Assembly (NCBI RefSeq): GCF_014200405.1
Contig: NZ_JACHBQ010000001.1
Span: forward strand, 3,658,001-3,722,000
DNA: 64,000 nucleotides
Direction of reading: 5' to 3'
Origin: Cryobacterium roopkundense
GTDB lineage: Bacteria; Actinomycetota; Actinomycetes; Actinomycetales; Microbacteriaceae
In this document: in pieces, positions 4,461 through 60,905 of the stretch
How the letters are laid out: every line of letters starts with the position of its first letter
How positions within the stretch are numbered: the first letter of the stretch is position 1
The notes under the pieces: model-generated
The model's database searches: none
What the model was told of the DNA's origin: nothing
The model's input: the letters and a program-made list of their open reading frames with translations, nothing else
Made by a program: the position numbers and the translations under genes

Positions 4461-4536
4461 GCGCGAGGACAAGAACGCTCCCCGAGCGACGCCCACCGGC
4501 AGCACAACAGAGCACCCCCTCCGCGGCACCCCTTCC

Positions 4537-4681: not shown

Positions 4682-4682
4682 A

Positions 4683-4717
4683 GGGGGGGGTACGGGGCGG
4701 GGGGGCGGGGGTGCGGG
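4683..4717 (+). other. G-tract block with G-quadruplex potential
   Basis: Five G runs of 8, 4, 7, 5 and 3 bases are separated by loops of 1 to 3 bases. This satisfies the usual four-run quadruplex rule on the plus strand. It lies directly after the stop of the SCP-like gene. Confidence 0.6.
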
Positions 4718-4727
4718 AGGAGCGCGC

Positions 4728-5087
4728 CTACAGAACCGGAACGTGACCCGTGAGGTCGGCGCGGGCTCCGGAGGCGTGGATGAGGCCCGATGCGATTCCG
4801 TCGGGCCAGCTCAGGGCGCCCGTTGCGAGGGCGAGCCAGGTGGCGACATCCGTTTCGACGACGTTCGGCGGCGTGCCGCGGGTGTGGCGGGGGCCTGCCA
4901 CGCACTGCACGGCGCCGAACGGCGGCACCCGCACCTCGAGGGTGTTGCCCTCGGCCTGCTCGGCGAGCAGCTGCAGGGTGTATCGAACGGCCTGCGCACG
5001 GATGTCCCGGCTCGCGCCCGCACCCTCGGCGAGCGCCGCGCGCACGGCCACCCGGCCGGCTCCGTCGTCGATTCTCGCTCGTGCCAT
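4728..5087 (-). CDS. SCP-like (sterol-carrier family) small protein
   Basis: A 119-residue protein starting MARARIDDGAG. It has the conserved segment EVRVPPFGAVQC, then GPRHTRGTPPNVVE and a C-terminal ASGARADLTG. These are typical of the actinobacterial bacterial-SCP-orthologue family, usually encoded near purL/purF. The biochemical role is not established. Its start codon and first nine codons lie inside the 49-bp repeat at 5060-5108, whose second copy is at 26808-26856. The gene therefore probably once followed the small gene now at 26853-27056. It now lies 17 bp downstream of the MFS gene stop. Confidence 0.85.
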   Translation of the reverse strand: MARARIDDGAGRVAVRAALAEGAGASRDIRAQAVRYTLQLLAEQAEGNTLEVRVPPFGAVQCVAGPRHTRGTPPNVVETDVATWLALATGALSWPDGIASGLIHASGARADLTGHVPVL

Positions 5088-5108
5088 GGTTCCAGTCTGC
5101 CGGATCAG
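5060..5108. repeat. Left copy of the 49-bp perfect direct repeat (island boundary)
   Basis: All 49 bases match 26808-26856, and the match stops sharply on both sides. The copy contains the ATG and first codons of the intact SCP-like gene. It also supplies the TGA stop of the adjoining MFS gene at 5105-5107. Confidence 0.95.
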
Positions 5109-6574
5109 CGCGACGGCGGGTACTCGGCGGCGGGCACGCGGGGACGAACAACATAGATCGCGCCGGTGGACACGTCCTCCTCGATGGCCTCGAGGGTGCG
5201 TCCTCGAGTCTCGGGAACCTGGGTGGCAACGAAGAGGATCGCTGCCAGCCCCACAAAGCCGAATATAAAGAACGTCCCCGAAATACCGATGGCCTCCACA
5301 GCCGTGGGGAAGAACAGCCCCAGCAAGGCATTCACCGTCCAGCCACAGAAGACCGAGATGCCGATTGCGAGGCCGCGGATGCGCAGCGGGAAAATCTCGG
5401 ACAGCATCACCCAGATCGCAATGTTCAGGAACGTCTGCATGGAGCCGACAAACAACACGACAAGCAGGAGGATGACAAAGGGACGCGCCGAGTTACCCAC
5501 CGGGAGCGCGAGGGAAGCGCTTCCGATGAGGAAGTGAGCCGTCGTCGTGAGAATAAAGCCCAGCAGCAAGGTGGTCCGGCGGTTGATGCGCTGCATGAGC
5601 GAGAGCCCAATGATGCCGCCGATGACGGCAATCACCCCGGGTGCGATGTTGGCGATCAGAGCTGTGTCCTGATTGAACCCAGCCTCAGTGAGGACGGATT
5701 GGCCGTAGTACATGATCGAGTTGATTCCGGTAAGTTGCTGACCGACGGCCAGCCCGATTCCCACCAGAAGAATTCGGATGACCCACTTCTCCTTGAGCGC
5801 ACGCCATCCGGGGCTGACCAAGGTCGACTGTTCGTTGGCCAGGTGAACGATTTCGTCCAGTTCCGCGCGCGCCCGCTCGGGGCTGCGAACGCTCTCGAGC
5901 ACAGTCAGGGCATCATCTACCCTGCCCTGTGAAATCAGCCAGCGCGGTGATTCCGGTACCCGCATCATCCCGATCAACAGCGCGACTGCGGGAAGGGCAG
6001 CGACGGCGAGCATGTACCGCCAGACACCCTCGTGGTCGCTCCATACCGTTCCAATGACGGCGTTGACGACGAAAGCGGCGAGTTGTCCGATGACAATCAT
6101 CAATTCGTTCCGCCCAGCCAGCGCGCCCCGAATTTCGAATGGTGCCAGTTCCGACAGGAACACCGGGACAACCACGGATGCCCCACCAACTGCCAAGCCG
6201 AGGACGATTCGCCCTGCGACCATGAACTCGAGATTGGGTGTGAAGACACAGGCAAGTGCGCCAGCGATGAAGAAGACGGCGATCAGGATGATCATTTTCC
6301 GACGCCCGATCGAGTCGGACAACCTGCCCCCGGCCAACGCCCCGAACGCGGCGCCGACAAGAAGAGAGCTTGTGACCACACCTTCGGTCAGTGCCGTGAG
6401 CCCGAGTTCCGCTTTCATGGGCGCCAAAGCGCCGTTGATCACACCCGTGTCATATCCAAAGAGGAGCCCACCCAATGTCGCGATCAAGGCCACTGTTCGC
6501 AGCCTATGCGTGTGGCGTCCGATAGTGAGTGGCGGAAGCGGATGCGCCTCAGTGGTGGACAGTGCCCGGCTCAT
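5105..6574 (-). CDS. iolT: MFS sugar porter, probable myo-inositol/sugar:H+ symporter
   Basis: 489 residues with 12 predicted membrane spans and the full sugar-porter signature set: GGLLFGYDTGVINGAL in TM1, GRRK after TM2, PESPRWL before the central loop, QQLTGIN in TM7, NRR in the central repeat and PETRGRTLEAIE at the C-terminus. These match the IolT/XylE class that imports myo-inositol or pentoses/hexoses with protons. The iol genes in the same island make inositol the favoured substrate, which is inference. The ATG at 6574 has AGGGAG six bases upstream. The stop lies inside the 49-bp repeat, so the C-terminal end coincides with the island edge. Confidence 0.8.
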   Translation of the reverse strand: MSRALSTTEAHPLPPLTIGRHTHRLRTVALIATLGGLLFGYDTGVINGALAPMKAELGLTALTEGVVTSSLLVGAAFGALAGGRLSDSIGRRKMIILIAVFFIAGALACVFTPNLEFMVAGRIVLGLAVGGASVVVPVFLSELAPFEIRGALAGRNELMIVIGQLAAFVVNAVIGTVWSDHEGVWRYMLAVAALPAVALLIGMMRVPESPRWLISQGRVDDALTVLESVRSPERARAELDEIVHLANEQSTLVSPGWRALKEKWVIRILLVGIGLAVGQQLTGINSIMYYGQSVLTEAGFNQDTALIANIAPGVIAVIGGIIGLSLMQRINRRTTLLLGFILTTTAHFLIGSASLALPVGNSARPFVILLLVVLFVGSMQTFLNIAIWVMLSEIFPLRIRGLAIGISVFCGWTVNALLGLFFPTAVEAIGISGTFFIFGFVGLAAILFVATQVPETRGRTLEAIEEDVSTGAIYVVRPRVPAAEYPPSR

Positions 6575-6673
6575 ATGACTCCCTCGTCGATGCGACCGGC
6601 GAATATTCCGCCGGGAGAGGCGATTTTGGCTGCATCGCCCCGCTGGCTCAACCCTAGACGTTTCTCATATATT

Positions 6674-6686
6674 GGACAAATCGTCC
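6674..6686. promoter_or_regulatory. Candidate operator GGAC-N5-GTCC upstream of the MFS gene
   Basis: An inverted repeat with GGAC/GTCC arms and a 5-bp spacer lies in the AT-richer region between the MFS start and the IclR stop. A GGAC-N5-GTCC element also precedes iolB at 16967-16979. Short arms make this tentative. Confidence 0.3.
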
Positions 6687-6728
6687 GTTTTACGAGCGGT
6701 CCCTCCCCCTGAAGCCTCGCGATTCGAA

Positions 6729-7541
6729 TTACCGAGTGAACCCTTGGTTGCGTTCACGCTTGGCAACGCGCGCACTCCCACTTGAACTCTCCTCGAGCGC
6801 GTCGGCCGAAGCAGAAAGCGCCGAGGCGGCGCGATCCAGCGCCGCGAGGTACTCGTCCCGGTGCGCTCGCATGTCCTCGGCCAGCCCCCCGATCGACACG
6901 CAAGCACGCACTTCGCCCGACGGATCGAGAATCGGCCTGCCGAGTGCGCCAATCCCGACCGTGGCATCCTCATCGGAGACCGAGAACCCGCGTTCGAGGG
7001 TCCGCTGAATGTCGTCGCGCAACTCGTCTGCCGCCGTCAACGTCGATGGTGTCAGCTTGGCGAGCGGAGCACGCTTCATATAGTCGTCGAGGTCGCCGGC
7101 GTAGGCCAGCAGGAGTCGACCTGCCGCACCTGCGTGCAGAGGAAGAGCTCGACCCGGCTTAAAGGTCAGCACACCGATTCCTCGACCCGGCACCCAGTCA
7201 ATGCACACGGCGTTGTCGTCGCGCAGGACACTCAGGAATGCGGTCTGGCCCGTCGCGTCCACCAAGTCCAACAGCGCCGCTTTCGCTCCCGCCCACTCTT
7301 CCATGGCGGAACGAGCCTCGTCGGCAATATGAAGCCAGCGCAGGCTCAAGGCGACTCGTGCGTCCGGAAGAGTCTCGGTGAGATTAATTGCATTGAGGCC
7401 ATCGACCAGGCGATAGATACTGGGGCGAGGGACGTCGATCCTCTCGGCTATCTCGGCCGGAGTGAGGGGCCCGACTTCTGACAGCAGATCGACGAGATCG
7501 CGAGCGTTCGCCAGGACGCGAGTTGGCTTGATCGATTTCAT
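6729..7541 (-). CDS. IclR-family transcriptional regulator (first of an overlapping pair)
   Basis: 270 residues. The N-terminal winged helix-turn-helix (LTPAEIAERIDVPRPSIYRLV) is followed by an IclR effector domain (LPLHAGAAGRLLLAY, RGFSVSDEDATVGIGALG). It starts at ATG 7541 with a strong GGAGGAG site and overlaps the stop of the upstream IclR gene by 4 bp, so the two are co-translated. IclR proteins bind small catabolites and repress or activate nearby catabolic operons. Likely targets are the MFS gene downstream and the transketolase operon upstream. The effector is unknown. Confidence 0.88.
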   Translation of the reverse strand: MKSIKPTRVLANARDLVDLLSEVGPLTPAEIAERIDVPRPSIYRLVDGLNAINLTETLPDARVALSLRWLHIADEARSAMEEWAGAKAALLDLVDATGQTAFLSVLRDDNAVCIDWVPGRGIGVLTFKPGRALPLHAGAAGRLLLAYAGDLDDYMKRAPLAKLTPSTLTAADELRDDIQRTLERGFSVSDEDATVGIGALGRPILDPSGEVRACVSIGGLAEDMRAHRDEYLAALDRAASALSASADALEESSSGSARVAKRERNQGFTR

Positions 7542-8323
7542 GGCTCTCCTCCGAGATAGCCCAGTGCCCGGCTGCTCGTGAGGGCCGCATCGAGGACGAG
7601 GTCAATTGTCGAACGGTCCTCCGACAGGACCAGAGCGCGCAAGCCGCTAATCGACAGGGCGGCCTCGATCTCCCCTCGATGATTGAAGACAGGCGCCCCG
7701 ATGGCCGCGATGCCCGGCGTCACGTCTCCATCAGAAATGGAGTATCCCCGCACTCGAGTTTCCTCAGCGATTCGATTCAGTTCGGCCCGGCTGGGGATCG
7801 AGGCATCGGCAGCCCGGGAGGAATCCAGCTGTTCGATCACAGCCCCCCTCTCGCTGTCAGGCAGGTGAGCGAACAGCGCAACCGGTGCCGCACCGAGGTA
7901 GAGGGGCAACGAATCCCCCAGCGACATCGCCAGGGACCGAACATCGCGTCCCTCGAATCGTTCGACGCACACTGCTCGAGTGCCTCGACGCAAGCACAGG
8001 AAGCTGGTCGCGCCCGTCGACGCCAGGAGAGCCTTCAGTGACGGAACGGCTGCGTCCCGGACGCTGATCTGGTCTTCCAGACGCCCGCCGATCCGCATGA
8101 ACTGCACGCCGAGTCGAAACAGGCCGCGACGCGAACCCGGATCCACCCAACCAATAGACGCGAGATTGGTGAGCAGGCGGTAGGTGGAGCTCATTGGTTC
8201 ATCGACCGCCACGGCGATGGCAGCCGCGGTCAATTCGCCTTGCCCCTCGAGAGCCTGGATCACCGCGTCCGCTTTGGCGAGGATCTCTAAGCCACCACCC
8301 TGGGAAGATTCCGTGCTGCTCAT
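7538..8323 (-). CDS. IclR-family transcriptional regulator (second of the pair)
   Basis: 261 residues from ATG 8323 (MSSTESSQGGG), chosen because GGAAG lies upstream. The longer frame to 8401 adds a stretch without family similarity. The HTH segment (LTAAAIAVAVDEPMSSTYRLL) and the effector domain (LPLYLGAAPVALFAHL, RGYSISDGDVTPGIAAIG) parallel the neighbouring IclR, which suggests an old tandem duplication. It is divergent from the transketolase operon across a 152-bp AT-rich spacer and probably controls it. Confidence 0.85.
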   Translation of the reverse strand: MSSTESSQGGGLEILAKADAVIQALEGQGELTAAAIAVAVDEPMSSTYRLLTNLASIGWVDPGSRRGLFRLGVQFMRIGGRLEDQISVRDAAVPSLKALLASTGATSFLCLRRGTRAVCVERFEGRDVRSLAMSLGDSLPLYLGAAPVALFAHLPDSERGAVIEQLDSSRAADASIPSRAELNRIAEETRVRGYSISDGDVTPGIAAIGAPVFNHRGEIEAALSISGLRALVLSEDRSTIDLVLDAALTSSRALGYLGGEP

Positions 8324-8475
8324 ACAGTCATCTTCCCACATGCCGGACACGGGTGCTGCCGCGCGGGGAAAGAAAACTATCCAAGCGCACATTTTTCTCA
8401 TAAGATAGACATGTAGTTCATTTTACGGTATCTTTTACTCAAGGCAAGGTAGCCTCGACCAGACGAAAGAGCGAC
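8324..8475. promoter_or_regulatory. Divergent promoter region between the IclR and transketolase operons
   Basis: The AT-rich stretch 8385-8445 stands out from its surroundings. AAGATA (8402-8407) and TATCTT (8429-8434) form an inverted pair around a 21-bp spacer, a possible IclR-type operator. Start sites are not certain. Confidence 0.4.
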
Positions 8476-9369
8476 ATGAGCCTAAGCATCGAGAACGATC
8501 TCACTACCGCGAATTTGGCCAACATTGCCCAAGAAGCCCGGTGGCGCGTAATAGAAACGGTCACCTCCAGCAAGGCCGGCCACGTCGGCGGTCCCCTGTC
8601 CGCAATCGACATGCTGGTTGCCCTCTACTTCCATCAAATGAGAGTGGATCCCGCCAGCCCCCAGAATCCGGACCGCGATCGCTTCATTCTGTCCAAGGGA
8701 CACTGTGCCATCGGCCTTTACTCAGTCCTGGCGCTGCGCGGCTATTTCCCCGTTGCAGAACTCCTGACATTCGATCACGGCGACTCTCGGCTTCAAGGAC
8801 ATCCCGACATGCTCCTCACCCCGGGTGTTGATTCTTCCTCCGGATCGCTGGGACAAGGGCTCTCCGCAGGTGCAGGGATGGCCCTTGCAGCGAAGCGTCT
8901 GGGAAAGGAGTTCCACACGTGGGTCATGGTCGGCGATGGCGAAATTGAAGAGGGCATGGTGTGGGAGACGATCATTGCCGCGCCTCGGTACGGCCTCGAC
9001 AACCTGACCCTGGTCATCGACCTGAATGGCCTGCAGCAGTACGGTTGGCCGGCCGGCAAGGGCGACCGCTTCGACAGGAGCGAACCTATGGGCCACGTCG
9101 ATCTTCCCGCCGTGCTCGGCGGATTCGGCTGGAACGTCATCTCGATCGATGGGCACGACTTCAACGACATCCTGGCCGGCTATGCGCGGGCAGAGGAACA
9201 CCGAGGCGTCTCCGGCAAGCCCACCGTGATCATCGGAAATACGACGAAGGGAAATGGCATCTCGTTCACCAGCGGAACCTACAAGTGGCACAACGGTGTC
9301 GCAACCCCCGAACAGCTCGAGACAGCCCGCGCCGAACTGCGCGACACGGAGACAGGAATGTACGCATGA
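8476..9369 (+). CDS. Transketolase, N-terminal (TPP-binding) subunit
   Basis: 297 residues forming the thiamine-diphosphate-binding half of a split transketolase: SKGHCAIGLY, then the GDGEIEEGMVWE ... DLNG metal/TPP motif, then a KGNGISFTSGTYKWHNG end. With the C-terminal subunit encoded by the next gene (4-bp ATGA overlap) it should transfer two-carbon ketol units between sugars or sugar phosphates. Split transketolases occur in secondary pentose, apiose and other sugar pathways, so the real substrate may not be a pentose-phosphate intermediate. A GAAAGAG site precedes the ATG. Confidence 0.88.
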   Translation: MSLSIENDLTTANLANIAQEARWRVIETVTSSKAGHVGGPLSAIDMLVALYFHQMRVDPASPQNPDRDRFILSKGHCAIGLYSVLALRGYFPVAELLTFDHGDSRLQGHPDMLLTPGVDSSSGSLGQGLSAGAGMALAAKRLGKEFHTWVMVGDGEIEEGMVWETIIAAPRYGLDNLTLVIDLNGLQQYGWPAGKGDRFDRSEPMGHVDLPAVLGGFGWNVISIDGHDFNDILAGYARAEEHRGVSGKPTVIIGNTTKGNGISFTSGTYKWHNGVATPEQLETARAELRDTETGMYA

Positions 9370-10298
9370 AGGCTCAGCGCCAGGTCTGGGGAGAAACGCT
9401 CGCCGAGCTCGCCCAAGTCGACTCGCGAGTAGTCGTTCTGGACGCGGACCTCGCCACGTCAACCAGGGCCGACATCGTCGCCGACAAGGCTCCCCATGCA
9501 TTCATCCAGATCGGCATCGCCGAACAGAACATGGTCGGTATGGCCTTCGGCATGTCGACCCTGGGCTACCGACCGTGGCTCTCCACGTTCGGCGTCTTCC
9601 TCACCCACCGAGCCCTGGACCAAATCCGGATGCTCGTCTCGCAGACCAAAGCGCCGGTACGCATCGCGGCTGCATACAGCGGGTTGTTGAATGGCTCCAG
9701 CGGCAAGACCCATCAAGACATCGAAGACCTGGCCATCATGAGGGCAATGCCCAACATGACCGTGCTCGCTCCCGCCGATGAATTCGAGGCTGCCGCCATC
9801 ATCCGCTGGGCCGCCGAGCATGACGGCCCGGTTTACATCCGTTTCGCCCGCGACGCAGTCCGGCCCGTATTCGACGCCAGCTACACATTCGTCCCTGCGC
9901 AACCGGTCGAACTGCTCGCCGGGCCCGACATCACCCTGATCTCCACGGGCGTGCAGACCTCGCGCACATTCGAGGCCGCTCAGCTCCTCGCGGCCGACGG
10001 CATCCAAGCGCAGCTCATTCATCTGCCCTCCATCAAACCGCTCGATGAGGCGGCGCTCCTGTCGACCGTCGGCGACGCGAAGCACGTCATCACCGTCGAA
10101 GACCATAGCCGCATCGGCGGACTGGGTGGGCTCATTGCCGAGATAGCCGCAACTGCCGGCAGCTTCCGCGTCACGCGGATTGGCCTCGATGACCGATGGG
10201 CGGAATCTGCACCCAATGACTTCCTTCTGGACAAATACGGACTGTCGCCAGAGCGCGTCGCAGACAGCATCCGTGGCGCCCTCAAGCAGTCAGGGTGA
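9366..10298 (+). CDS. Transketolase, C-terminal (pyrimidine-binding) subunit
   Basis: 310 residues from ATG 9366, which overlaps the previous stop. The longer in-frame extension to 8961 lies inside the N-subunit gene and is not used. It carries the pyrimidine-domain motif FIQIGIAEQNMVGMAFG with the catalytic Glu of IAEQN, then HQDIEDLAIMRAMPN and the C-terminal transketolase fold (EDHSRIGGLGGLIAE). It forms the active enzyme with the N-subunit. The stop overlaps the GTG of the next gene, so the genes form one translationally coupled operon. Confidence 0.88.
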   Translation: MKAQRQVWGETLAELAQVDSRVVVLDADLATSTRADIVADKAPHAFIQIGIAEQNMVGMAFGMSTLGYRPWLSTFGVFLTHRALDQIRMLVSQTKAPVRIAAAYSGLLNGSSGKTHQDIEDLAIMRAMPNMTVLAPADEFEAAAIIRWAAEHDGPVYIRFARDAVRPVFDASYTFVPAQPVELLAGPDITLISTGVQTSRTFEAAQLLAADGIQAQLIHLPSIKPLDEAALLSTVGDAKHVITVEDHSRIGGLGGLIAEIAATAGSFRVTRIGLDDRWAESAPNDFLLDKYGLSPERVADSIRGALKQSG

Positions 10299-11263
10299 GG
10301 TCCCGAGTCGTCACGTTGACCCCCTCTCCCGCGATCGATCGCGTGTACACCGTCGGATCAATGGTCCCGGGAGCCGTCAACCGAGCAGTAGCAGTTGAGT
10401 CGTACCTCGCGGGCAAGGGGATCAACGTGGCGAAGACCTTGCGCACCGCAGGAAACCAGATCATCGCCGTGGCCCCCATGAACCTCAGGGACGTGCGCTC
10501 GCTTCTCGATGACCCACGCCTGTACCGTACCGTGGGCGTCGAAGCGCCGACGCGGGTCAACGTTGTGATCATCGCCGAAGACGGTTCGACGACGAACATC
10601 AACCAGTCTGCGACCGAACTCGTTCCCGGGGTGTGGCTCGGGCTATGCGCTGCCGCCGGCAGCGAAATGAGACAGATGGACGCGGATTGGATCGTCGTCG
10701 CTGGGAGCATGCCGCGCGAGGCCGGAACCGGGGCTCCTCTCGACCCAGAGCCACTGATGAGTGAGGCACGCCGGGCGGGCGCGCGGGTGTGCCTTGATTC
10801 CGGCGGAACGACTTTGCGTCGATGGATCCGTTCGGGGTATGCACCGCACCTGGTCAAACCCAATGTGCACGAGCTGTCTGCGACGGTCGGGCGAACATTG
10901 AGGACTGTCGGGGACGTGGTCATCGCGGCGCGCCAACTTGTGGACGTCGGCGTGGAGACCGTGCTTGCAAGCCTCGGTTCAGACGGTGCGGTCGTCGTCA
11001 CTGATTCAATGGCCCTATGGGCGCGCGCGCCTCGTACCGAAGTCGTGAACACTACCGGTGCCGGCGACGCTGCGTTGGCGGGCTTTCTCAGCGGGTGGAC
11101 GGGAGAGGATTCACAGCAATTGGCTGCCGCCCTCGTCCGTGCCGTGAGCTGGGGATCCCTCGCAGTGGGCGAAGCCACCCCGGTCCTGACCGAACTCAGA
11201 TCGGTAGCCGGCATCGAAATCGGCGAACCGATGGCCGTCCGTGAGCTCACTGACGCGGCCTGA
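10295..11263 (+). CDS. PfkB-family sugar (phosphate) kinase, 1-phosphofructokinase/LacC-like
   Basis: 322 residues from GTG 10295 (GTGA overlap with the transketolase subunit). The start VVTLTPSPAIDRVYTV and AGKGINVAKTLR match the FruK/LacC subgroup. The anion-hole and catalytic motif NTTGAGDAALAGF gives the base Asp. It does not look like the 5-dehydro-2-deoxygluconokinase IolC. Position suggests it phosphorylates the product or substrate of the split transketolase. Substrate unknown. Confidence 0.82.
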   Translation: MRSRVVTLTPSPAIDRVYTVGSMVPGAVNRAVAVESYLAGKGINVAKTLRTAGNQIIAVAPMNLRDVRSLLDDPRLYRTVGVEAPTRVNVVIIAEDGSTTNINQSATELVPGVWLGLCAAAGSEMRQMDADWIVVAGSMPREAGTGAPLDPEPLMSEARRAGARVCLDSGGTTLRRWIRSGYAPHLVKPNVHELSATVGRTLRTVGDVVIAARQLVDVGVETVLASLGSDGAVVVTDSMALWARAPRTEVVNTTGAGDAALAGFLSGWTGEDSQQLAAALVRAVSWGSLAVGEATPVLTELRSVAGIEIGEPMAVRELTDAA

Positions 11264-11309
11264 GGACGCGGGCTCTCCGTATTCCGCCCAACCGAAGGAC
11301 TTCGCTCGG

Positions 11310-12548
11310 ATGAACATTCGACCGTTTCGATGGCGTTTCCACGCTGCCGTGCCTGTGCTTGGCGTGATTATCCTGATCGGCTTGGTCTTACGCGGTCCCA
11401 TCGTCGCTGTTGCTCCGATCGCTGCCACCATCCGGGCGGACACTGGCCTGAGCTCGGCCGGCATCGGCCTGCTCACCAGCCTGCCCATCCTGTTGTTCGC
11501 CATCGCGACGCCGTTTGCCGCGGCACTGATCGGGCGGGTCGGTCCCAACGCCGCGACCACGATATGTCTCCTCGGTGTGATTCTGGGATCAATAGTCCGA
11601 TCCACCGGCGGGGTCACCGCCTTGTTTGTCGGGGCCGCACTCATTGGCCTGTTCATCACAATCGGCAACGTTGTCATTCCCGTCCTCATCCGGCGAGACG
11701 TCGATCCGAGGCGAGTCGGGTTCGCGACCGGGGTCTATTCCTCGGCGCTGAATATCGGATCGATGGTCACGTCCTTTGCGACAGCGCCTCTGGCGGAGGC
11801 CTGGGGATGGCGGGTCGCCCTGCTCTTCTGGGCGACCTTCGCCGTGGTTGCGACCGCGGGGTGGATGTCGAGCGTGGGGTGGCGTGGGGGGTTCGTGTCA
11901 GGTGAGAGACCCCGCCTACGAATGCGCGACGACCGCACGGGCGGAATGCGTATGACGGCGCGAACTGACCGGCCCCGATTAGGCGGCACGGCCGCGCTCC
12001 TGGCGATTGCGTTCTCCGGACAGGCCTTCGCCTACTACGGGACCACGGCTTGGTTGCCGCAGATCTTGCACGACGAGCAGGGCTACTCGCAAACGTCGGC
12101 TGGCTCGTCTGCGTCGCTCTTCCAAATAGCAGCTCTCATCGGCGCGATGGGAATTCCGGCGCTTGTCGCACGCACCAACGCGACGTGGGGTGTCCTCGCA
12201 GTATTCCTGGGGTGGCTGACGATCCCGCTCGGGCTCCTACTCGCCCCAAGCCTCTACCTCCTCTGGGAACTCATCGGCGGCGCGGCCCAGGGCGGCGGCT
12301 TCACGGCGGTCTTTATTATTGTTCTGCGGATGGCGACCGACGACCGGCACGCTCGGAGACTGTCGGCGCTTGTGCAGGGCGTCGGCTACGGAGTGGCGTG
12401 CACAGCACCATCCCTCTTGGGTGCCGCCCACGACTTCAGCGATGGATGGACCGTTCCCATCGTGCTGATCTCCCTCGGCGTGGCCACCTTCGGCAGCTGC
12501 GGCCTCATCGCGTCCAGGCGGCAATCTCGCGATCTTTCAAGCCTGTGA
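11310..12548 (+). CDS. MFS transporter, CynX/NimT-like
   Basis: About 412 residues with 12 hydrophobic spans. It starts at ATG 11310 with GAAGGA upstream; a GTG at 11241, inside the kinase gene, is an alternative giving 435 residues. The LVLRGPIVAVAPIAATIRADTGLSSAGIGLLTSLPIL-type opening (shown here only in part) and the later FSGQAFAYYGTTAWLPQIL segment are typical of the CynX/NimT branch. It is last in the transketolase operon, so import or export of that pathway's substrate is likely. Substrate unknown. Confidence 0.75.
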   Translation: MNIRPFRWRFHAAVPVLGVIILIGLVLRGPIVAVAPIAATIRADTGLSSAGIGLLTSLPILLFAIATPFAAALIGRVGPNAATTICLLGVILGSIVRSTGGVTALFVGAALIGLFITIGNVVIPVLIRRDVDPRRVGFATGVYSSALNIGSMVTSFATAPLAEAWGWRVALLFWATFAVVATAGWMSSVGWRGGFVSGERPRLRMRDDRTGGMRMTARTDRPRLGGTAALLAIAFSGQAFAYYGTTAWLPQILHDEQGYSQTSAGSSASLFQIAALIGAMGIPALVARTNATWGVLAVFLGWLTIPLGLLLAPSLYLLWELIGGAAQGGGFTAVFIIVLRMATDDRHARRLSALVQGVGYGVACTAPSLLGAAHDFSDGWTVPIVLISLGVATFGSCGLIASRRQSRDLSSL

Positions 12549-12580
12549 GACCGCCCGCGTGGCTGGCCGAGTTGTGCGTG

Positions 12581-14053: not shown

Positions 14054-14093
14054 GCGTGAACTCACTCTCGTATGGGTGGATCAAATGTAGATA

Positions 14094-14134
14094 GGAAAAA
14101 TGGGGCGGATGGACCGCCACGGCCATCCGCCCCA
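14094..14134 (-). terminator. Intrinsic terminator after iolD
   Basis: A perfect 12-bp stem (14101-14112 with 14123-14134) around a 10-base loop is followed on the minus strand by a T5 run (14096-14100). It separates iolD from the aldehyde dehydrogenase gene. Confidence 0.85.
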
Positions 14135-14153
14135 TCGTCGTTCGCGTGAGGTG

Positions 14154-16034: not shown

Positions 16035-16066
16035 CGCATTAGTCCTTTTCGTGTGCAGTTCTTGTG

Positions 16067-16909: not shown

Positions 16910-16966
16910 GGGGCAGTCCTTTCTCGGCGACGCGTTCGCGCCGACACCTAAACAATATTGCTTACC

Positions 16967-16979
16967 GGACGTGATGTCC
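16967..16979. promoter_or_regulatory. Candidate operator GGAC-N5-GTCC upstream of iolB
   Basis: GGAC/GTCC arms with a 5-bp spacer lie in the 92-bp gap before iolB. The arm and spacer layout matches the element at 6674-6686. There may be an internal promoter here, since AT-rich DNA (CAATATTG) adjoins it. Confidence 0.3.
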
Positions 16980-17001
16980 AGTGTGTGATACTTTTCGACA
17001 T

Positions 17002-18875: not shown

Positions 18876-18928
18876 GTGGAGTTCCTTACATCGTGGAGCG
18901 TGGGCGTGAATTCGAGGGCGGTAATCGA

Positions 18929-20005: not shown

Positions 20006-20889
20006 GACACGGCAAGCGCGGACAGGATTCCGCGCAGGTAGTTCACACTGGCACGGGCATCCTCGATCGGCCCCTCACCCAGTTCCGGGTATTCCTGCAC
20101 GATCTTGTCCTGCTCAAGAACGATCCAGCCGTTGTAGCCGCTCTCCACGAGGCTCGTAACAATGGCGCGCACGTCCACGTCGCCCTGGCCGACCGGCGTG
20201 TAGAGGCCGGCAATGCACGCGTCGTAGTAGCTGATCTCGCCATTCTTGACCTTGTGCATCCACTCGAGGGACACGTCTTTGAGATGTGTATGAGCAATAC
20301 GGTCGGCGTGCGCTGCGGCAAAGGCTACGGGATCGGTGCCACCAATCATGAGGTGTCCGGTATCGAAGCAGAACGGAATCGTCGACCCCTCAAGCACGCG
20401 CGTCACATCATCTGCCGTTTCAACGACAGTCCCAACGTGCGGATGAAGAGCCGCCCGGACACCCTGTGCCGAGGCCACGCGGGTGATGCGGTCAAGGTTT
20501 CCGAAAAGGGTTGTCCACTCGCCATCCGTGAGGACTTCCCGTGTCGCGTCGTAGCCGCGGAGCCCGGTGACAGCGCAGACCACAAGAACGTCTCCGCCGG
20601 CCGCAGCGTACGCTTCGAGCTCACGCTCAAGCCGCGGCAGCGGGTCGACGTCGGCTCTGTGCATGACGACCGGCACGAAGCTCCCGATCGCTTCGAGGCC
20701 GTATTCCCGCAGTGTCGCGGCCTTGTCGGCCGGCGCTTCGGGGAGAAAGCCATCCGCTCCGATTTCCGTGGCAGTGAAACCGAGTTCTGCCATCTCGGAG
20801 AGCACTCGTTCCGGAGGGAGCTGGACACCCCAGCCGGGGACTTCGCTGACTCCCCAGGAGATGGGAGCGGTTGCGATCTTGGCGCTCAT
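20002..20889 (-). CDS. iolE: myo-Inosose-2 dehydratase-like TIM-barrel protein
   Basis: 295 residues with a start MSAKIATAPISWGVSEVPGW followed by LPPERVLSEMAELGFTATEIG, the classic IolE opening. ALHPHVGT, CFDTGHL and AHTHLKDV carry the metal-binding residues. It would dehydrate scyllo-inosose to the trihydroxycyclohexane-dione used by IolD. ATG 20889 has AAGGATCC upstream. It lies between two Gfo/Idh genes in the iol operon. Confidence 0.85.
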   Translation of the reverse strand: MSAKIATAPISWGVSEVPGWGVQLPPERVLSEMAELGFTATEIGADGFLPEAPADKAATLREYGLEAIGSFVPVVMHRADVDPLPRLERELEAYAAAGGDVLVVCAVTGLRGYDATREVLTDGEWTTLFGNLDRITRVASAQGVRAALHPHVGTVVETADDVTRVLEGSTIPFCFDTGHLMIGGTDPVAFAAAHADRIAHTHLKDVSLEWMHKVKNGEISYYDACIAGLYTPVGQGDVDVRAIVTSLVESGYNGWIVLEQDKIVQEYPELGEGPIEDARASVNYLRGILSALAVS

Positions 20890-20941
20890 TGTGGATCCTT
20901 ACTCGCACCCGGACGGCGCGGATTGTCGTTGCGGGGAGAAG

Positions 20942-22138
20942 TTACTGCGCGAAGGCTGCGGTGCTGCCGGCGATGATGGGCAAGGACACCCACAAGCCGG
21001 ATGCGGCCGATTCCTCGGCAGCGTCGAGCACGCGAGCCGACGCCACCGCGTCATGGATGTTTGAGGATTCGGCCGATCCGCCGGTGACAGCGAGGAGGAA
21101 TTTCTTCGCCTCGATGGTCTTGAGGTCGTCATACCCCATTCCCGTGCCTGAGCTGGGCTGGAAGCGTTCGAACTCGGGGAATGAACTGTTGGCGAGCACG
21201 GTGGTGAAGCCGATGAAGGGTCCTGTGCGGGTGAGCGCCACATCCAGTTCGTTCATGCGGGCGAAGTTCCAGCGCACGGATCCTTCGGTTCCGTTGATCT
21301 CGAAGCCATAATCTGAGGAGGAGCCGACCGCGATTCGGGATGCCTCCAGACTGCCCAGTGCGCCGGCGGCAACCGCGGAGTCGTGGAAACGAATCAGCAT
21401 GCTCGCGAAGTCCTCGTTTTCCACGGGCAGGAGGCCGGTCGCCGTGGAGCCGGGCAACGCCGGCCGCTCGGCTATATAGGTTCCAGTGGCCGCCGTAACG
21501 GCAGAGATTGGTCCCAGCACATGGTGCATCAGGTCGACCAGATGGCCCATGAGATCGCCCAGCACGCCACTGCCGGACATGGAGCGAACGAAGCGCCATG
21601 CCAGGGGGTCTTCTGGATTGGAGGAGAATCCTCCGAAGAATCGTCCGCGGACGTTGGTAACGCGGCCGAGCTGACCTTCGGCGATGAGCTTTTTGGCCAG
21701 TTCGACCGCAGGCACGTGACGATAGTTGAAACCGATGCACGTCACGACGCCCGCCGCGTCGGCGGCGGCCTCGACCGCTGCCGTCTCTTTCCCGCCACGC
21801 CCGACCGGCTTTTCGACCCAGAAGGGTTTTCCCGCCTTCGCGGCGGCGATGCTGACCTCAGCGTGCAGGAAGTTCGGAGCACAGATCGACACGACGTCGA
21901 CCTCTGGGTTGGCGAGGACGTCGCGGTAGTCGGTTGTCGTGGTCTCGTACCCGAGGACGTTCTCGGCGTAATCGCGCCCGGCTTGGGCGGTATCAGCGGC
22001 CTGCACGAGGCGTGGCTTGAGCCCGAGCTCTGGATAGATAAGCGGTAGCGCGGCGTAAGCGCGGCTGTGGAGCCGTCCCATCCAGCCGACGCTGATGAGG
22101 CCGACACCGATGGTGCGTGTCTGGGGACTTGTCGACAT
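20942..22138 (-). CDS. Gfo/Idh/MocA-family oxidoreductase, first gene of the iol operon
   Basis: 398 residues from ATG 22138 with TAGGAATC upstream; an ATG nine codons earlier is less likely. It has a Rossmann fold (GLISVGWMGRLHSRAY), a VEKPVGRGGKE lysine motif and GVLGDLMGHLVDLMHHVLG in the active-site region. It is longer than IolG. Candidate roles are scyllo-inositol or other sugar dehydrogenase. It heads the minus-strand operon and is preceded by two palindromic operator-like sites at 22341-22372. Confidence 0.8.
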   Translation of the reverse strand: MSTSPQTRTIGVGLISVGWMGRLHSRAYAALPLIYPELGLKPRLVQAADTAQAGRDYAENVLGYETTTTDYRDVLANPEVDVVSICAPNFLHAEVSIAAAKAGKPFWVEKPVGRGGKETAAVEAAADAAGVVTCIGFNYRHVPAVELAKKLIAEGQLGRVTNVRGRFFGGFSSNPEDPLAWRFVRSMSGSGVLGDLMGHLVDLMHHVLGPISAVTAATGTYIAERPALPGSTATGLLPVENEDFASMLIRFHDSAVAAGALGSLEASRIAVGSSSDYGFEINGTEGSVRWNFARMNELDVALTRTGPFIGFTTVLANSSFPEFERFQPSSGTGMGYDDLKTIEAKKFLLAVTGGSAESSNIHDAVASARVLDAAEESAASGLWVSLPIIAGSTAAFAQ

Positions 22139-22428
22139 TGAGATTCCTATCAGGTGCGGCGACACGCCAGGTCGCGGGCGAAATGGAAAATCGCGGGCGC
22201 GTGCGGAGGGCAGACTTGCGGCGACACCAGCAGGGCCCGGATTGGGTCTTCTTCGGAGTAGACCGGAGGTCAGTGAAGATGCTCACATCGTGCGCGCATC
22301 CTCGCGCTCTACCTTTTGAAAAACCATAATCGAGGTCAAATTGGACCGGTCCGAAATCTTGGATTGGTCCAAAGCTAAGGGTGGATCCTCTCCATGTCAA
22401 GTCAAAGGTCGACTGTCTGCTCGAAGGT
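22139..22428. other. 290-bp leader of the iol operon
   Basis: Non-coding space between the LacI stop and the first iol gene. It contains the tandem palindromes listed next and an AT-rich patch around 22315-22335. No small gene is supported. Confidence 0.5.
22341..22372. promoter_or_regulatory. Tandem operator-like palindromes upstream of the iol operon
   Basis: TTGGACCGGTCCGAA (22341-22355) contains the perfect palindrome GGACCGGTCC. TTGGATTGGTCCAA (22359-22372) has TTGGA/TCCAA arms. Their centres are 18 bp apart. They have the form of LacI-family operators, and the lacI-type gene is adjacent. Confidence 0.65.
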
Positions 22429-23445
22429 TCAGAGAATCCGTCGGGTCGAATTCCTGACTCGCAACGTCGGTGCGATGAGCTCCTGATGGTCTTGGGCATT
22501 CCCCACCAAACCGTCGGCAAGGATCTCGGCCGAGCGTCGGCCAATGGCCTCGTTTCCCGGGTCGACTGTGGTGAGAGAGATCTGTCGGAGCGCTGCCAGG
22601 TAGGTGTCGTCGTAGCCCGTCACGCTCATCACGACACCGCGTTCACCGGCAGAAGACAGGGCGCCGATGGCAGCCAGGTCATTGACGGCGGTGATCGCCG
22701 TCGGGGGGACGGCGGCGGTCAGAAGCAGCTCGGCTGCGGCGTGCCCAGACGCTTCCGAATAGTCGGCAGGTGAAATCCGGCTGAAATCGCCGAGTCCGTG
22801 TTCAGCCATGGCCAGTTCGTATGCGCGGGCGCGGGCCTCGGCGACGGAGCCTCCCCGGCCGCCAATATGCGCGATATTGCGATGGCCCAGGCCCACGAGA
22901 TGGTCGATGACCAGGCGCATACCGGCCAGGTCATCCCCGCGAACGGTGGGCGCCTCGGGAAGGTAGTCTGCGATGGCGCTTGCGACGACGATCGTTGAGT
23001 TCGGAGCCAGTTCCGCGATGGCAGGCATGTCCGGCACCGAACCCACGATGAGAATCCCGCGTGGGCGAAGGTCTCGGAAAAACGCGAGCAGTCGGTCGTC
23101 GAGGACGTGCTGGCTCGCCTCTCCCGGCAGGGTCGCGCTGGTCATGAGGCTAGCCTCCCCGACTCGGGCGAATTCTCGCCGGGCGGCGTCAACGATATCG
23201 GCGAAGACCGGGTTGTGGAGATCGGCGACAAGAATCACAATAAAGTTCCCGTCACCCCCGGCCAGAGACCGAGCGACGACATTCGGCGTGTAGCCGAGCG
23301 CTGCCGCCGCGTCGAGCACTCGCTTGGCACGTGCAGGGCTAACACCTGACGGGCGGGCATAAACCAGGGCGGCCAGAGATTTCGACACTCCAGCCGCGTC
23401 CGCAACATCTCGGATCGTCGGGCGCTTGCTGCGGTTGGTGACCAT
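22429..23445 (-). CDS. LacI-family transcriptional regulator
   Basis: 338 residues from ATG 23445. The N-terminal LacI HTH (TIRDVADAAGVSKSLAALVY, then the hinge region RVLDAAAALGYTPN) precedes a periplasmic-binding-like effector domain (FIVILVADLHNPVFADIVDAA, then HIGGRGGS and TGYDDTYLAALRQI). It most likely senses an inositol-derived or sugar ligand. It lies between the iol operon (same strand, downstream) and the divergent ABC importer, so it probably controls both. Confidence 0.87.
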   Translation of the reverse strand: MVTNRSKRPTIRDVADAAGVSKSLAALVYARPSGVSPARAKRVLDAAAALGYTPNVVARSLAGGDGNFIVILVADLHNPVFADIVDAARREFARVGEASLMTSATLPGEASQHVLDDRLLAFFRDLRPRGILIVGSVPDMPAIAELAPNSTIVVASAIADYLPEAPTVRGDDLAGMRLVIDHLVGLGHRNIAHIGGRGGSVAEARARAYELAMAEHGLGDFSRISPADYSEASGHAAAELLLTAAVPPTAITAVNDLAAIGALSSAGERGVVMSVTGYDDTYLAALRQISLTTVDPGNEAIGRRSAEILADGLVGNAQDHQELIAPTLRVRNSTRRIL

Positions 23446-23505
23446 GATTTGCCCATTCTGCCGGACGGAACGAGATCCTTGAGTCGAATGGGGCCAGGTA
23501 GGCGG

Positions 23506-23523
23506 TCGAACCTTCCAGTTCGA
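23506..23523. promoter_or_regulatory. Candidate operator TCGAAC-N6-GTTCGA between lacI and the ABC importer
   Basis: Perfect 6-bp inverted arms around a 6-bp spacer lie in the 222-bp divergent spacer. A LacI-type autoregulatory site is possible. It does not resemble the GGACCGGTCC sites of the iol leader. Confidence 0.45.
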
Positions 23524-23667
23524 GAACAGCAAAGCAGTCTTTAGTTTCATGCAGCGAACATCTTGTCTGCCGAACGGGAATGCACTATGTTGGCATCAGT
23601 CCCGGTCGAGCGGCCGCAGCCGCTCACTGACTCGGGTGCCCTTTCACGGCAAACAAAGGAGATTTTC

Positions 23668-24663
23668 GTGAAGAAATTCCGTATGGCAGCTGGCCTCGCC
23701 GCATTGGCGCTGGTCCCCGTTATCGCACTCGCTGGGTGTTCCAGCGCCGGTGGCCGAACCGAGCCCGCGTCCGGGAGCGGCGACACAGGAGCAGCTGCAA
23801 GCACTCCCCCGATGACGATCGCGATGATTACACACGCGGCGGCGGGTGACACGTTCTGGGACATCGTCAGGAAAGGGGCCGAGGCCGCAGCCGCCAAGGA
23901 CAACGTCAAGCTCGTCTACTCGGGAGACGCCGACGGTGGACGGCAGGCCCAACTCGTGCAGCAGGCCATCGATCAGAACGTCGACGGCATCGCACTGACC
24001 TTCGCCAAAGCGGACGCGATGAAAGACGTGGTGCAGAAGGCACTGGATGCGGGCATCCCCGTCGTCGGGTTCAATGGAGGTCAGCAGGAGGCCCTGGCTG
24101 CGGGCGCGCTCACCTACATCGGACAGGACGACAAGCAGGCCGGCGTCGAAGCCGGCAAGAAACTCGTCGCTGACGGATTCACGCAGCCGATCTGCATGAT
24201 CCAGGAGCAAGGCCACGTCGGCCTCGAGGCGCGCTGCGCGGGCATCAAGGAGCAGATTCCGGCTACAGAAATCCTTTACGTGACCGGGACCGACATGGCC
24301 CAGGTGTCTTCGACTCTGACAGCGAAGCTTCAGGCCGACACCAGCGCGGACGTAGTGATGGGCCTCGGCGCACCGTTCACGCTCGCAGCCATCGACGTGG
24401 TCGCCCAGACCGGGTCCAAGGCCAAGATCGGATCCTTCGATATGAACGCCGATCTCGCGCAGGCGATCATCGACGGAAAGGTCATCTTCACCGTCGACCA
24501 GCAGCCATATCTGCAGGGCTACGAATCCGTCGATGCGCTCTGGCTGAAGAAGAACGGTGGCTTCGCGCTTGGTGGCGGCGGCGCAGTCGCAACCGGTCCC
24601 ACCATCGTTACCCCGGGCACCGCGGAGGCCGTCCTCGCGGGCGCCAAAGAAGGCATCCGCTAA
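23668..24663 (+). CDS. Sugar ABC transporter substrate-binding lipoprotein
   Basis: 331 residues from GTG 23668, chosen for a perfect AAAGGAG site. The lipobox LAGC ends an N-terminal signal. The mature part is a type-I periplasmic-binding fold (MTIAMITHAAAGDTFWDIV, DGIALTFAKADAMKDVV, GIPVVGFNGG, YIGQDDKQAGVEAGKKL), as in ribose/inositol/xylose binding proteins. It delivers a sugar or inositol to the permease encoded next. A hairpin at 24678-24705 follows, which often lets the binding protein be made in excess. Confidence 0.9.
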   Translation: MKKFRMAAGLAALALVPVIALAGCSSAGGRTEPASGSGDTGAAASTPPMTIAMITHAAAGDTFWDIVRKGAEAAAAKDNVKLVYSGDADGGRQAQLVQQAIDQNVDGIALTFAKADAMKDVVQKALDAGIPVVGFNGGQQEALAAGALTYIGQDDKQAGVEAGKKLVADGFTQPICMIQEQGHVGLEARCAGIKEQIPATEILYVTGTDMAQVSSTLTAKLQADTSADVVMGLGAPFTLAAIDVVAQTGSKAKIGSFDMNADLAQAIIDGKVIFTVDQQPYLQGYESVDALWLKKNGGFALGGGGAVATGPTIVTPGTAEAVLAGAKEGIR

Positions 24664-24677
24664 CCCCAGGCAATTCG

Positions 24678-24705
24678 GGGCCGGGCGGAGCATTCCGCCT
24701 GGCCC
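24678..24705 (+). terminator. Intercistronic stem-loop between binding protein and permease genes
   Basis: Twelve-base GC-rich arms (24678-24689 and 24694-24705) with one mismatch and a GCAT loop, and no T run. It is probably a 3'-end stabiliser or partial terminator, as is common after binding-protein genes. Confidence 0.6.
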
Positions 24706-24725
24706 CCGGACCTAAGGACACACTC

Positions 24726-25805
24726 ATGGCCACCACCACTACCACCACTCCCCCAGTTCCCCGGGCTGCCAAGGCGCCGAAGAACCAGTTCGACGAACGG
24801 GTCGGTCAGCGCTCGCTGATCTCCACCCTCCTTGGGCGACCGGAAATGGGTGCCGTCGTCGGTGCCATCGTCGTCTTCGCCTTCTTCGCCATTTTCGCCC
24901 CGACCTTCACCCAACCGAACTCGATCGCGACCGTCCTGTACGGCTCATCCACCATCGGCATATTGGCCGTAGGAGTGTCGCTCCTCATGATCGGCGGCGA
25001 GTTCGACCTGTCTACCGGTGTTGCCGTCATTTCTTCAGCGCTGACCGCGTCGATGTTCTCCTGGTATTTCTCTACGAATATCTGGGTCGGCATCTTCGTC
25101 GGACTGGCGTTTTCCCTGCTCGTAGGATTCGTCAACGGCTGGCTTCTGATCAAGACCAAGCTCCCTTCCTTCATCGTCACGCTCGCGACATTCCTCATGC
25201 TGACCGGCATCAACCTTGGTGTCACGCGACTTGTCGGTGGCGGCGTCGCGTCGCCATCCATCTCCGACCTGGACGGATTCGCTTCCGCCAAAGCCGTGTT
25301 CGCCTCGGACATCCCGATTTTCGGCATCAACGTGAAGATCACTGTATTCATCTGGATAGCTCTCGTGGCGGTTGCCACTTTCATCCTCATGCGAACCGAG
25401 ATCGGCAACTGGATCTTTGCCGTGGGTGGCGACGAAAACGCTGCTGCGGCAGTAGGCGTCCCCGTGGCGAAGACCAAGATCGGCCTCTTCATGGCAGTCG
25501 GATTCTGTGCCTGGATCGCAGGCATGCACAATCTTTTTGCATTCAACGTCGTGCAGTCCGGTGAAGGTATCGGAAATGAGTTCCTGTACATCATCGCCGC
25601 GGTAATCGGCGGATGCTTGCTGACTGGCGGATACGGCTCCGCCATCGGTGGCGCGATCGGCGCACTGATTTTCGGCATGGCCAACAAGGGCATTGTCTAC
25701 GCGCAGTGGAATCCGGACTGGTTCAAGTTCTTCCTGGGACTGATGCTGCTGCTGGCCACCATCGTCAACCTCGTTGTAAAGAAGAGAGCGGAGCAGAAAT
25801 CATGA
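24726..25805 (+). CDS. Sugar ABC transporter permease (RbsC/FrcC type)
   Basis: 359 residues with about ten membrane spans. It has the signature GGEFDLSTGVAVISSALTAS, the KLPSFIVTLATFLML segment and GGDENAAAAVGVPVAKTKI, typical of BPD-transporter permeases for ribose, fructose or inositol. It begins MATTTTTT after a short spacer. Its stop overlaps the ATPase start by 4 bp. It forms the membrane channel of the importer. Confidence 0.9.
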   Translation: MATTTTTTPPVPRAAKAPKNQFDERVGQRSLISTLLGRPEMGAVVGAIVVFAFFAIFAPTFTQPNSIATVLYGSSTIGILAVGVSLLMIGGEFDLSTGVAVISSALTASMFSWYFSTNIWVGIFVGLAFSLLVGFVNGWLLIKTKLPSFIVTLATFLMLTGINLGVTRLVGGGVASPSISDLDGFASAKAVFASDIPIFGINVKITVFIWIALVAVATFILMRTEIGNWIFAVGGDENAAAAVGVPVAKTKIGLFMAVGFCAWIAGMHNLFAFNVVQSGEGIGNEFLYIIAAVIGGCLLTGGYGSAIGGAIGALIFGMANKGIVYAQWNPDWFKFFLGLMLLLATIVNLVVKKRAEQKS

Positions 25806-26719
25806 CGAAGAACACCACATCACAGCATGACGAGTCGGAGGCCTATGACGTATCGACCGAGAACGCCGGGACGGGTCTCACGCACGTTCCTCACCTGCTC
25901 TCGCTGAAGGGCGCAGGGAAGAGCTACGGCAACATCATTGCCCTGTCCGACGTCGACATGGACGTCGACGCGGGGCGGGTCACCTGCGTTCTGGGCGACA
26001 ACGGCGCCGGCAAGTCCACGCTCATCAAGATCATCGCGGGGCGGCACGAACACACAACCGGAACGTTTGAAATCAATGGCGAAAGTGTCACGCTGAAGTC
26101 GCCCCGAGAGGCGCTGAACCTCGGGATCGCAGCTGTCTATCAGGACCTCGCAGTAGTACCGCTGATGCCCATCTGGCGCAATTTCTTCCTCGGATCTGAA
26201 CTCAAACGAGGGTGGGGGCCGCTCAGAATCCTCGACGTGGAGGAGATGAAGAGGATCACCAAAAGAGAACTTCTCGAGATGGGCATCGACCTACGAGACG
26301 TGGACCAGCCGATTGGGCAGCTCTCTGGCGGTGAGCGCCAGTGCGTGGCGATCGCCCGCGCCGTCTACTTCGGGGCGAAAGCTCTCATTCTGGATGAACC
26401 CACCGCCGCCCTGGGCGTCAAGCAGTCCGGGGTAGTGCTTCGGTACATTCTCCGTGCCCGCGACCGTGGTCTCGGCGTGATCTTCATTACGCACAACCCG
26501 CACCACGCATTCCCCGTCGGCGACCGATTCCTACTTCTCAAGCGCGGTAAATCCATCGGCTACTACGAGAAGAAGGACGTGACCCTCAACGAACTGACAG
26601 CGCAGATGGCGGGGGGTGCGGAACTGGAAGAGCTCGCCCACGAGCTTGAGCAGGTCGGCGGGAACACCGCACTGATTCACCAGATCCGCGAGGCCGAAGT
26701 CACGTCCCCGACAGTGTGA
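25802..26719 (+). CDS. Sugar ABC transporter ATP-binding protein (single-domain, FrcA-like)
   Basis: 305 residues from ATG 25802 (ATGA overlap); the longer upstream frame lies inside the permease gene. Walker A GDNGAGKSTLIK, Q-loop region YQDLAVVP, signature LSGGERQ, Walker B ALILDEPTAALG and the switch His in FITHNPHHA are intact. Only one nucleotide-binding domain is present, so it should dimerise. It energises sugar or inositol uptake and is the last gene of the island. Confidence 0.9.
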   Translation: MTKNTTSQHDESEAYDVSTENAGTGLTHVPHLLSLKGAGKSYGNIIALSDVDMDVDAGRVTCVLGDNGAGKSTLIKIIAGRHEHTTGTFEINGESVTLKSPREALNLGIAAVYQDLAVVPLMPIWRNFFLGSELKRGWGPLRILDVEEMKRITKRELLEMGIDLRDVDQPIGQLSGGERQCVAIARAVYFGAKALILDEPTAALGVKQSGVVLRYILRARDRGLGVIFITHNPHHAFPVGDRFLLLKRGKSIGYYEKKDVTLNELTAQMAGGAELEELAHELEQVGGNTALIHQIREAEVTSPTV

Positions 26720-26727
26720 GGAGTTGC

Positions 26728-26759
26728 GTCCCGCGCGAAATCGACCGTGCGCGCGGGAC
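26728..26759 (+). terminator. Stem-loop after the ABC importer operon
   Basis: GTCCCGCGCG and CGCGCGGGAC form a perfect 10-bp stem with a 12-base loop 8 bp after the ATPase stop. A GC-rich hairpin without a T run is common for actinobacteria. Confidence 0.7.
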
Positions 26760-26807
26760 GGCGCCTTCACCACGGAGGCGCAGTAGCTGCCACGACAGCC
26801 TTGAAAC

Positions 26808-26856
26808 CTCCGTCGTCGATTCTCGCTCGTGCCATGGTTCCAGTCTGCCGGATCAG
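26808..26856. repeat. Right copy of the 49-bp direct repeat, with a nine-codon remnant of the SCP-like gene
   Basis: Identical to 5060-5108. Read on the minus strand from 26835 it repeats the start MARARIDDG of the SCP-like gene and then diverges. This is therefore a truncated duplicate of the gene start, and it marks the other island edge. It also covers the stop codon of the small gene at 26853-27056. Confidence 0.95.
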
Positions 26857-60888: not shown

Positions 60889-60905
60889 CCTGATGCGAGA
60901 ACACA

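Follow-up and report, generated by a model that had tools for sequence, protein, structure and literature searches.

A 64-kb stretch of the Cryobacterium roopkundense chromosome (the window) carries an island of inositol and sugar genes enclosed by a perfect 49-bp direct repeat, at the junction between an SCP-like core gene and a small gene that precedes a second core gene, which we take to be purD from its own sequence and synteny. We favour, with moderate confidence, a single capture of this block at a variable core-gene junction, independent of a recombinase and accompanied by a short duplication of the target. The observations behind this reading are the duplication, the empty site in relatives, the foreign origin of the block, the presence of other cargo at the same junction and the absence of any recognized recombinase from the interior.

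First, we analyzed the repeat and the genes that it cuts. The two copies (Table 1) enclose 21,699 bp, and an exact-match search of the whole genome (two contigs, 4,531,652 bp, of which the chromosome contig makes up 4,452,429 bp) returned these two and no third; if independent bases are assumed, a 49-mer repeat is expected in 64 kb with a chance of about 1e-18. On the minus strand the unit starts with the base before the small gene's stop codon and that codon itself; a 17-nt spacer follows, and then the opening 28 nt of the SCP-like gene. At the left copy the SCP-like gene is whole and the stop codon now terminates the sugar porter gene of the island; beside the right copy it is the small gene that is whole, the SCP-like gene being reduced to a 28-nt stub comprising nine codons (MARARIDDG) and one base. 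With so short a repeat, and a single contig running across the whole block, a second copy produced by misassembly is unlikely. A tRNA or other RNA gene as target was rejected, since no tRNA, tmRNA or other Rfam-listed RNA was found in the window. An original prediction, made from the letters of the window, had proposed two identical copies, a nine-codon SCP remnant in the right copy and a gene junction rather than a tRNA as target; all three were borne out, the identity letter by letter.

Second, we compared the junction across 57 genomes of the genus, that of C. roopkundense included. The SCP-like gene and purD were each matched in 56 of these, G006 having neither, and both lie on the same contig in 54; they are on separate contigs in G012 and in G030, whose two contigs seem by eye to overlap. 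The gap between SCP and purD is 22,022 bp in C. roopkundense and 49–471 bp in 50 of the 53 other measurable genomes, the larger gaps being 1,001 bp (G010), 2,708 bp (G017) and 2,845 bp (G016). Flanks rejoined with one repeat copy aligned in one piece through the junction in four of the ten relatives aligned, over 921–931 bp at 74.8–82.3% identity (G015 82%, G367 78%, G035 77% and G004 75%). The small gene is matched in G015, G367 and G004, and over residues 8–56 only in G035; the other six relatives gave no match to it, and their alignments break there. The compact order predicted on removal of one repeat and the interior is thus found whole in relatives in which the island was not seen, in agreement with the single acquisition that had been proposed, and the suggested search for an uninterrupted junction succeeded. 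Sharing of the island by close relatives, named in advance as contrary evidence, was not seen.

Third, the block is closest to DNA of other genera. Its G+C content is 62.9%, against 68.2% in the left and 66.25% in the right flank. At E ≤ 1e-80 the island permease finds a match in 41 of the 57 genus genomes, its own included, and every match outside its own genome is at or below 52% identity. The entire cluster is carried by G104, a genome from another genus of the family that we take to be Rathayibacter sp. VKM Ac-2857, where 19 island proteins show 66–89% identity, compared with just 61% for SCP and 71% for purD; relative to the porter, the block from IclR to the ABC importer is inverted in comparison with the window. 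A similar gene set, at 40–80% identity, lies on the circular plasmid P20 (147,860 bp) of Curtobacterium sp. MCJR17_020. Judged by these sequence comparisons, the block is a horizontally acquired catabolic cluster. In G104 it is situated about 27 kb from that genome's own SCP–purD pair (L083/L093), which has a gap of 184 bp; the porter forms the cluster end nearer the pair, and its strand relative to SCP is the same as in the window. By simple arithmetic, a cluster in a genome of 4.6 Mb would fall within 30 kb of the pair, to one side or the other, with a probability of about 1%. Such linkage, known from one genome, would be in keeping with a donor fragment homologous at one of its ends. No immediate donor emerged from the DNA matches to plasmid records or from the genomes compared: 495 plasmid records matched at the right end and 22 at the left, the best of them at distant identity, and two of the three best-covering records were examined, NZ_AP024648.1 being left out.

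These results leave next to no probability for an island ancestral to the genus and lost elsewhere, or for a second repeat copy introduced by assembly. We found no support for either; contiguous junctions in four relatives, the lack of any listed permease match above 52% in the 56 other genus genomes, a block closest to other genera and a single chromosome contig spanning it all speak against them, and the permease, gap and flank-alignment data largely refute them.

The SCP–small gene–purD junction is variable within the clade. The nearest genomes by purD (G030, 93%; G016 and G017, 86%; G010, 85%) all hold other cargo there (loci L031, L032, L033 and L034), and G030 is the first-ranked relative for both SCP and purD. 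The cargo is a PAS-GGDEF-EAL protein in G030 (over its two contigs), an FAD oxidoreductase with a UbiA prenyltransferase in G016 and G017, and a 1-kb insert with a 238-residue open reading frame (ORF) lacking a Pfam match in G010. By eye, G010 and G016 keep an apparent short small-gene tail beside SCP, ahead of the cargo.

To account for the perfect repeat, one may regard the copies as attL and attR of an integrative element that has lost its integrase or is served by one in trans, the att core of its circle having matched the SCP start. Streptomyces actinomycete integrative and conjugative elements (AICEs) and integrative and conjugative elements (ICEs) reported in tRNA genes have end repeats of 42–43 nt (PMC6722414), and the present repeat is likewise perfect and direct, keeps the interrupted gene whole at one copy and has its empty site in relatives. 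Against this stands the interior, where neither an integrase or other recombinase nor a transfer gene was recognized by Pfam and NCBIfam among the main ORFs, as had been predicted for the recombinase. That scan covered the main ORFs and part of the small and antisense ones; the genes spanning 5105–26719 are metabolic, transport or regulatory, and leave gaps of at most about 265 bp. Nor does the junction cargo of other genomes carry the repeat. No second copy of the own junction was found in the 330 bp before purD in G010, G016 and G017 (270 bp in G030), the best scores being equalled by 95 (G010), 599 (G030), 824 (G017) and 977 (G016) of 1,000 shuffles; in the window itself, used as positive control, no shuffle of 1,000 did as well. 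A 10-bp stretch echoing the junction, at the right-hand end of the G010 cargo, was dropped, as 95 of 1,000 shuffles were equally good. With up to three mismatches, a 30-nt core of the repeat was matched in 17 of the 57 genomes, and only C. roopkundense has two copies; the 40 genomes lacking any match are uninformative in this test. Plasmid and phage records gave no match to the 49 bp at E ≤ 1e-5.

Since the relatives' cargo shows no repeat and two core copies occur only here, we conclude that the junction is variable and that the 49 bp do not resemble an integration core used in common. A reusable att site was rejected, with no further copy in the own genome, the genus genomes, plasmids or phages or beside other cargo, and we consider the integrative-element explanation unlikely. 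The original prediction that a mover acting in trans, lost or unrecognized had used the 49-bp site is consequently not supported: the suggested search for the sequence at other island ends was negative for G010, G016, G017 and G030, and neither a third genomic copy nor a plasmid or phage match was found that would point to a dedicated 49-bp mover. We also rejected a DDE transposon. The target-site duplications of these elements measure 2 to about 14 bp, so that 49 bp is long; no inverted repeat of at least 22 nt joins the two island ends, and the interior holds no transposase gene.

We then analyzed the joints. Beyond the left repeat, 5109–5133 stays similar to the tail of the small gene (17 of 25 nt, in frame), and immediate divergence on both sides, as first described, therefore holds on the SCP-gene side and fails on the other. 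A score of 17 is reached by 1 of 3,494 other long-ORF TGA 3′ ends in the fetched loci. None of 44 other sugar porters, among the closest 120 homologs listed, ends like this one, a comparison that is weak because porter tails vary. At the right joint no similarity precedes the repeat. The left joint may thus represent (i) the remnant of an already broken or diverged junction, (ii) joining at patchy similarity or (iii) chance.

Another conceivable source of the repeat is a circular donor: a circle bearing a short copy of the SCP–small gene junction would have entered by a single RecA-type crossover, its backbone being absent from the outset or later lost. We regard this as quite improbable. Forty-nine base pairs is short for a RecA crossover, donor and recipient would have been identical over 49 bp yet only 68% identical over the following 25, and no backbone gene remains. 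Conversely, the cluster does occur on the circular Curtobacterium plasmid, and a foreign junction copy would be expected to leave just such a diverged small-gene tail next to the left repeat. Single crossover of a shortened circle was moreover the commonest outcome reported in a conjugation study, where 56 of 60 clones carried a duplication, of 109–950 bp in the 14 clones sequenced (PMC3240628); these duplications keep the circular-donor model alive.

Recombinase-independent capture is preferred over a 49-bp mover because it is simpler. We infer the following route of joining and sequence of events. A foreign fragment would have been captured once, probably recently, at the SCP–small gene–purD junction of this lineage, with no need for a dedicated recombinase. 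One end would have joined beside the stop codon of the sugar porter, where its sequence patchily resembles the tail of the small gene. The other end would have joined 49 bp deeper into the SCP start, at a point lacking visible homology. Whatever lay between these two points would then have been copied twice, hence the duplication. This could have come about by fill-in of a staggered break with end joining, by template switching or by one-sided homologous joining. That the 49 bases are still identical suggests a recent event. Ku is matched in this genome (53 of 57 genus genomes in all), and end joining may therefore be available. The absent integrase is unremarkable in light of a survey of 80 species, which reports that hotspots lacking integrases are common: 45% of hotspots encode an integrase, 27% lack any mobility protein and half show no evidence of mobile elements (Oliveira et al. 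2017, PMC5635113).

Several points weigh against this account. A perfect 49-bp repeat round a foreign block is also the footprint of a site-specific recombinase, and integrases may be lost, or may act in trans; the scan for recombinases was limited to main ORFs searched with Pfam and NCBIfam. One-sided illegitimate joining is reported usually to delete target DNA (PMC3240628). The similarity of the porter tail could be due to chance, 60 of 20,000 permutations of the porter's last codons also reaching 17. In 2-kb windows the G+C content overlaps, at 61.3–64.8% for 10 island windows and 62.4–70.2% for 21 flank windows, and the comparison set holds no conspecific genome. G016 and G017, both holders of junction cargo, have no Ku match, so that such insertions do not all require Ku.

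Finally, the cargo hints at an undescribed way of inositol breakdown. Of the canonical inositol cluster, iolG, iolD and iolB are present above curated NCBIfam cut-offs, confirming the inositol-type cargo originally predicted; iolC, a Cgl0159-type aldolase and a CoA-acylating dehydrogenase were not found in the island. The same chromosome has a second inositol cluster elsewhere: a resident canonical one at 4235069–4243000 (L207) has iolC and MMSDH (TIGR01722) above cut-off, a Cgl0159-like aldolase and iolB- and iolD-like genes. What the island contains instead is a split transketolase, closest among solved structures to a split-chain transketolase (for the C subunit, that of Carboxydothermus hydrogenoformans), and a dehydrogenase resembling succinate-semialdehyde dehydrogenases (SSADHs).

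The same combination recurs among twelve regions of 20–45 kb chosen for matches to island genes. Six of them (the window, G104, Curtobacterium P20, G271, G302 and G311) have both transketolase subunits, iolD and iolG, with no match to the resident-type iolC or aldolase. In five of these six the only hit of the resident MMSDH query, at about 30%, is the SSADH-like gene itself; G311 matches neither the MMSDH query nor the SSADH-like gene, and IolB at 35% only. The resident-type set occurs, free of transketolase, in two regions (a Pseudarthrobacter plasmid and G191), G115 has the transketolase and no iolD, and G265, G347 and G309 have neither set. Outside the twelve-region comparison, G073, G256, G076, G218, G083 and G291 showed no transketolase and no iolD within 20 kb, and G174, G015 and G003 have IolD-like genes (46–48%) and no transketolase match.

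We tentatively suggest that the island encodes a mobile alternative inositol pathway dispensing with IolC, the aldolase and the CoA-dependent dehydrogenase, a reading that we would not yet call probable. IolB yields 2-deoxy-5-keto-gluconate, a 2-ketose bearing a terminal carboxylate. The split transketolase could transfer the two-carbon end of this compound onto a sugar phosphate. Malic semialdehyde would remain, for oxidation to malate by the SSADH-like enzyme; this chemistry, proposed by analogy, would parallel the sulfoquinovose transketolase route. If true, there would be a second way to dismantle inositol, moving between genera on plasmids and islands. No description of an inositol route via transketolase was found among the titles and abstract openings listed in literature searches. 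In a survey of 193,757 genomes iolC is given as an essential core gene of inositol clusters, a missing fourth core gene is ascribed to incomplete sequence, assembly error or frameshift, and the word transketolase is absent from the main text (PMC9430895). Some of the clusters lacking iolC could instead represent the transketolase pathway.

Table 1. Features of the island and its flanks (positions in the window)
Feature	Position	Strand	Remarks
SCP-like core gene (PF17844 SCP_3), 119 aa	4728..5087	-	intact, left neighbour of island; match in 56/57 genus genomes
Left 49-bp repeat copy	5060..5108		SCP start (28 nt), 17-nt spacer, stop codon (here the sugar porter's), one base
Sugar porter family MFS transporter	5105..6574	-	inositol-transporter-like; stop codon inside left repeat
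Sugar porter tail	5109..5133		codons AEYPPSR, small gene tail VEYTPAT; both then stop
Two IclR-family regulators	6729..8401	-	6729-7541 and 7538-8401
Split transketolase	8476..10298	+	N subunit 8476-9369, C subunit 9366-10298
PfkB sugar kinase	10295..11263	+	TIGR03168 hexose kinase above cut-off; IolC cut-off far from reached
MFS transporter	11241..12548	+	CynX/NimT-like, below cut-off
Aldehyde dehydrogenase	12581..14065	-	nearest to SSADHs, below NCBIfam cut-off
IolD	14154..16256	-	TIGR04377 above cut-off; match covers residues 85-696
IolB	16198..17119	-	TIGR04378 above cut-off; match covers residues 84-307 only
Xylose-isomerase-like TIM barrel protein	17002..17868	-	PF01261
IolG, inositol 2-dehydrogenase	17865..18875	-	TIGR04380 above cut-off
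Two Gfo/Idh proteins and IolE-like protein	18929..22165	-	Gfo/Idh 18929-20005; IolE-like 20002-20889 (below cut-off); Gfo/Idh 20942-22165
LacI-family regulator	22429..23550	-	
ABC sugar importer	23563..26719	+	binding protein 23563-24663, permease 24726-25805, ATPase about 25802-26719
Right end of island	26720..26807		non-coding; terminator-like hairpin about 26734-26760 (by eye)
Right 49-bp repeat copy	26808..26856		with nine SCP codons
Small gene, 69 aa	26853..27062	-	no Pfam match; intact, stop inside right repeat
purD (presumed)	27110..28378	+	right core neighbour; match in 56/57 genus genomes

The IolD match begins only at residue 85, and the true start of the gene is therefore probably near 16000. 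Downstream of SCP, 4490–4726 holds a 108-nt imperfect inverted repeat with many CCGCGAGAGCGGG-like palindromes; similar palindromes, by eye, precede purD in some relatives (L014, L024). The window has two transposase genes, both more than 32 kb away from the island: an rve-type gene (59307–60788) and a DDE transposase gene (62379–63887; PF01609, DUF772). Directly at the end of the former, at 60781–60895, motifs of the TGTAAACAA type are arrayed every 24 bp, and this array looks like a set of transposase binding sites at an element end.

The island is of interest as a large, recent-looking catabolic block with a perfect duplication and no recognizable recombinase, absent from the nearest genome; where many hotspots show no evidence of mobile elements, clean footprints that expose the joints are useful. 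It belongs to a known kind, the integrase-less island between core genes, and shares with the hotspot islands reported in PMC5635113 the variable cargo between two conserved core genes and the lack of a recognized mobility gene, but differs in having a short, perfect duplication of the target, for which no counterpart was found next to the cargo of four relatives. AICEs and ICEs resemble it in end repeats of similar length and a target gene kept whole at one end; unlike them, it has no recognized integrase or transfer gene, no tRNA target and no second user of the site that we could find. The products of homology-facilitated illegitimate recombination and single crossover described in PMC3240628 also consist of foreign DNA joined without a dedicated recombinase, the single-crossover products likewise showing short duplications, although that system is E. 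coli with a test plasmid, whereas the island has a 49-bp duplication and no plasmid backbone. In its cargo, the island resembles the IolCatGC clusters of PMC9430895 in iolB, iolD, iolG, IolE-like genes, a sugar importer and an inositol-type porter, and departs from them in having a split transketolase and an SSADH-like gene in place of iolC, a Cgl0159-type aldolase and a CoA-acylating dehydrogenase, none of which was found.

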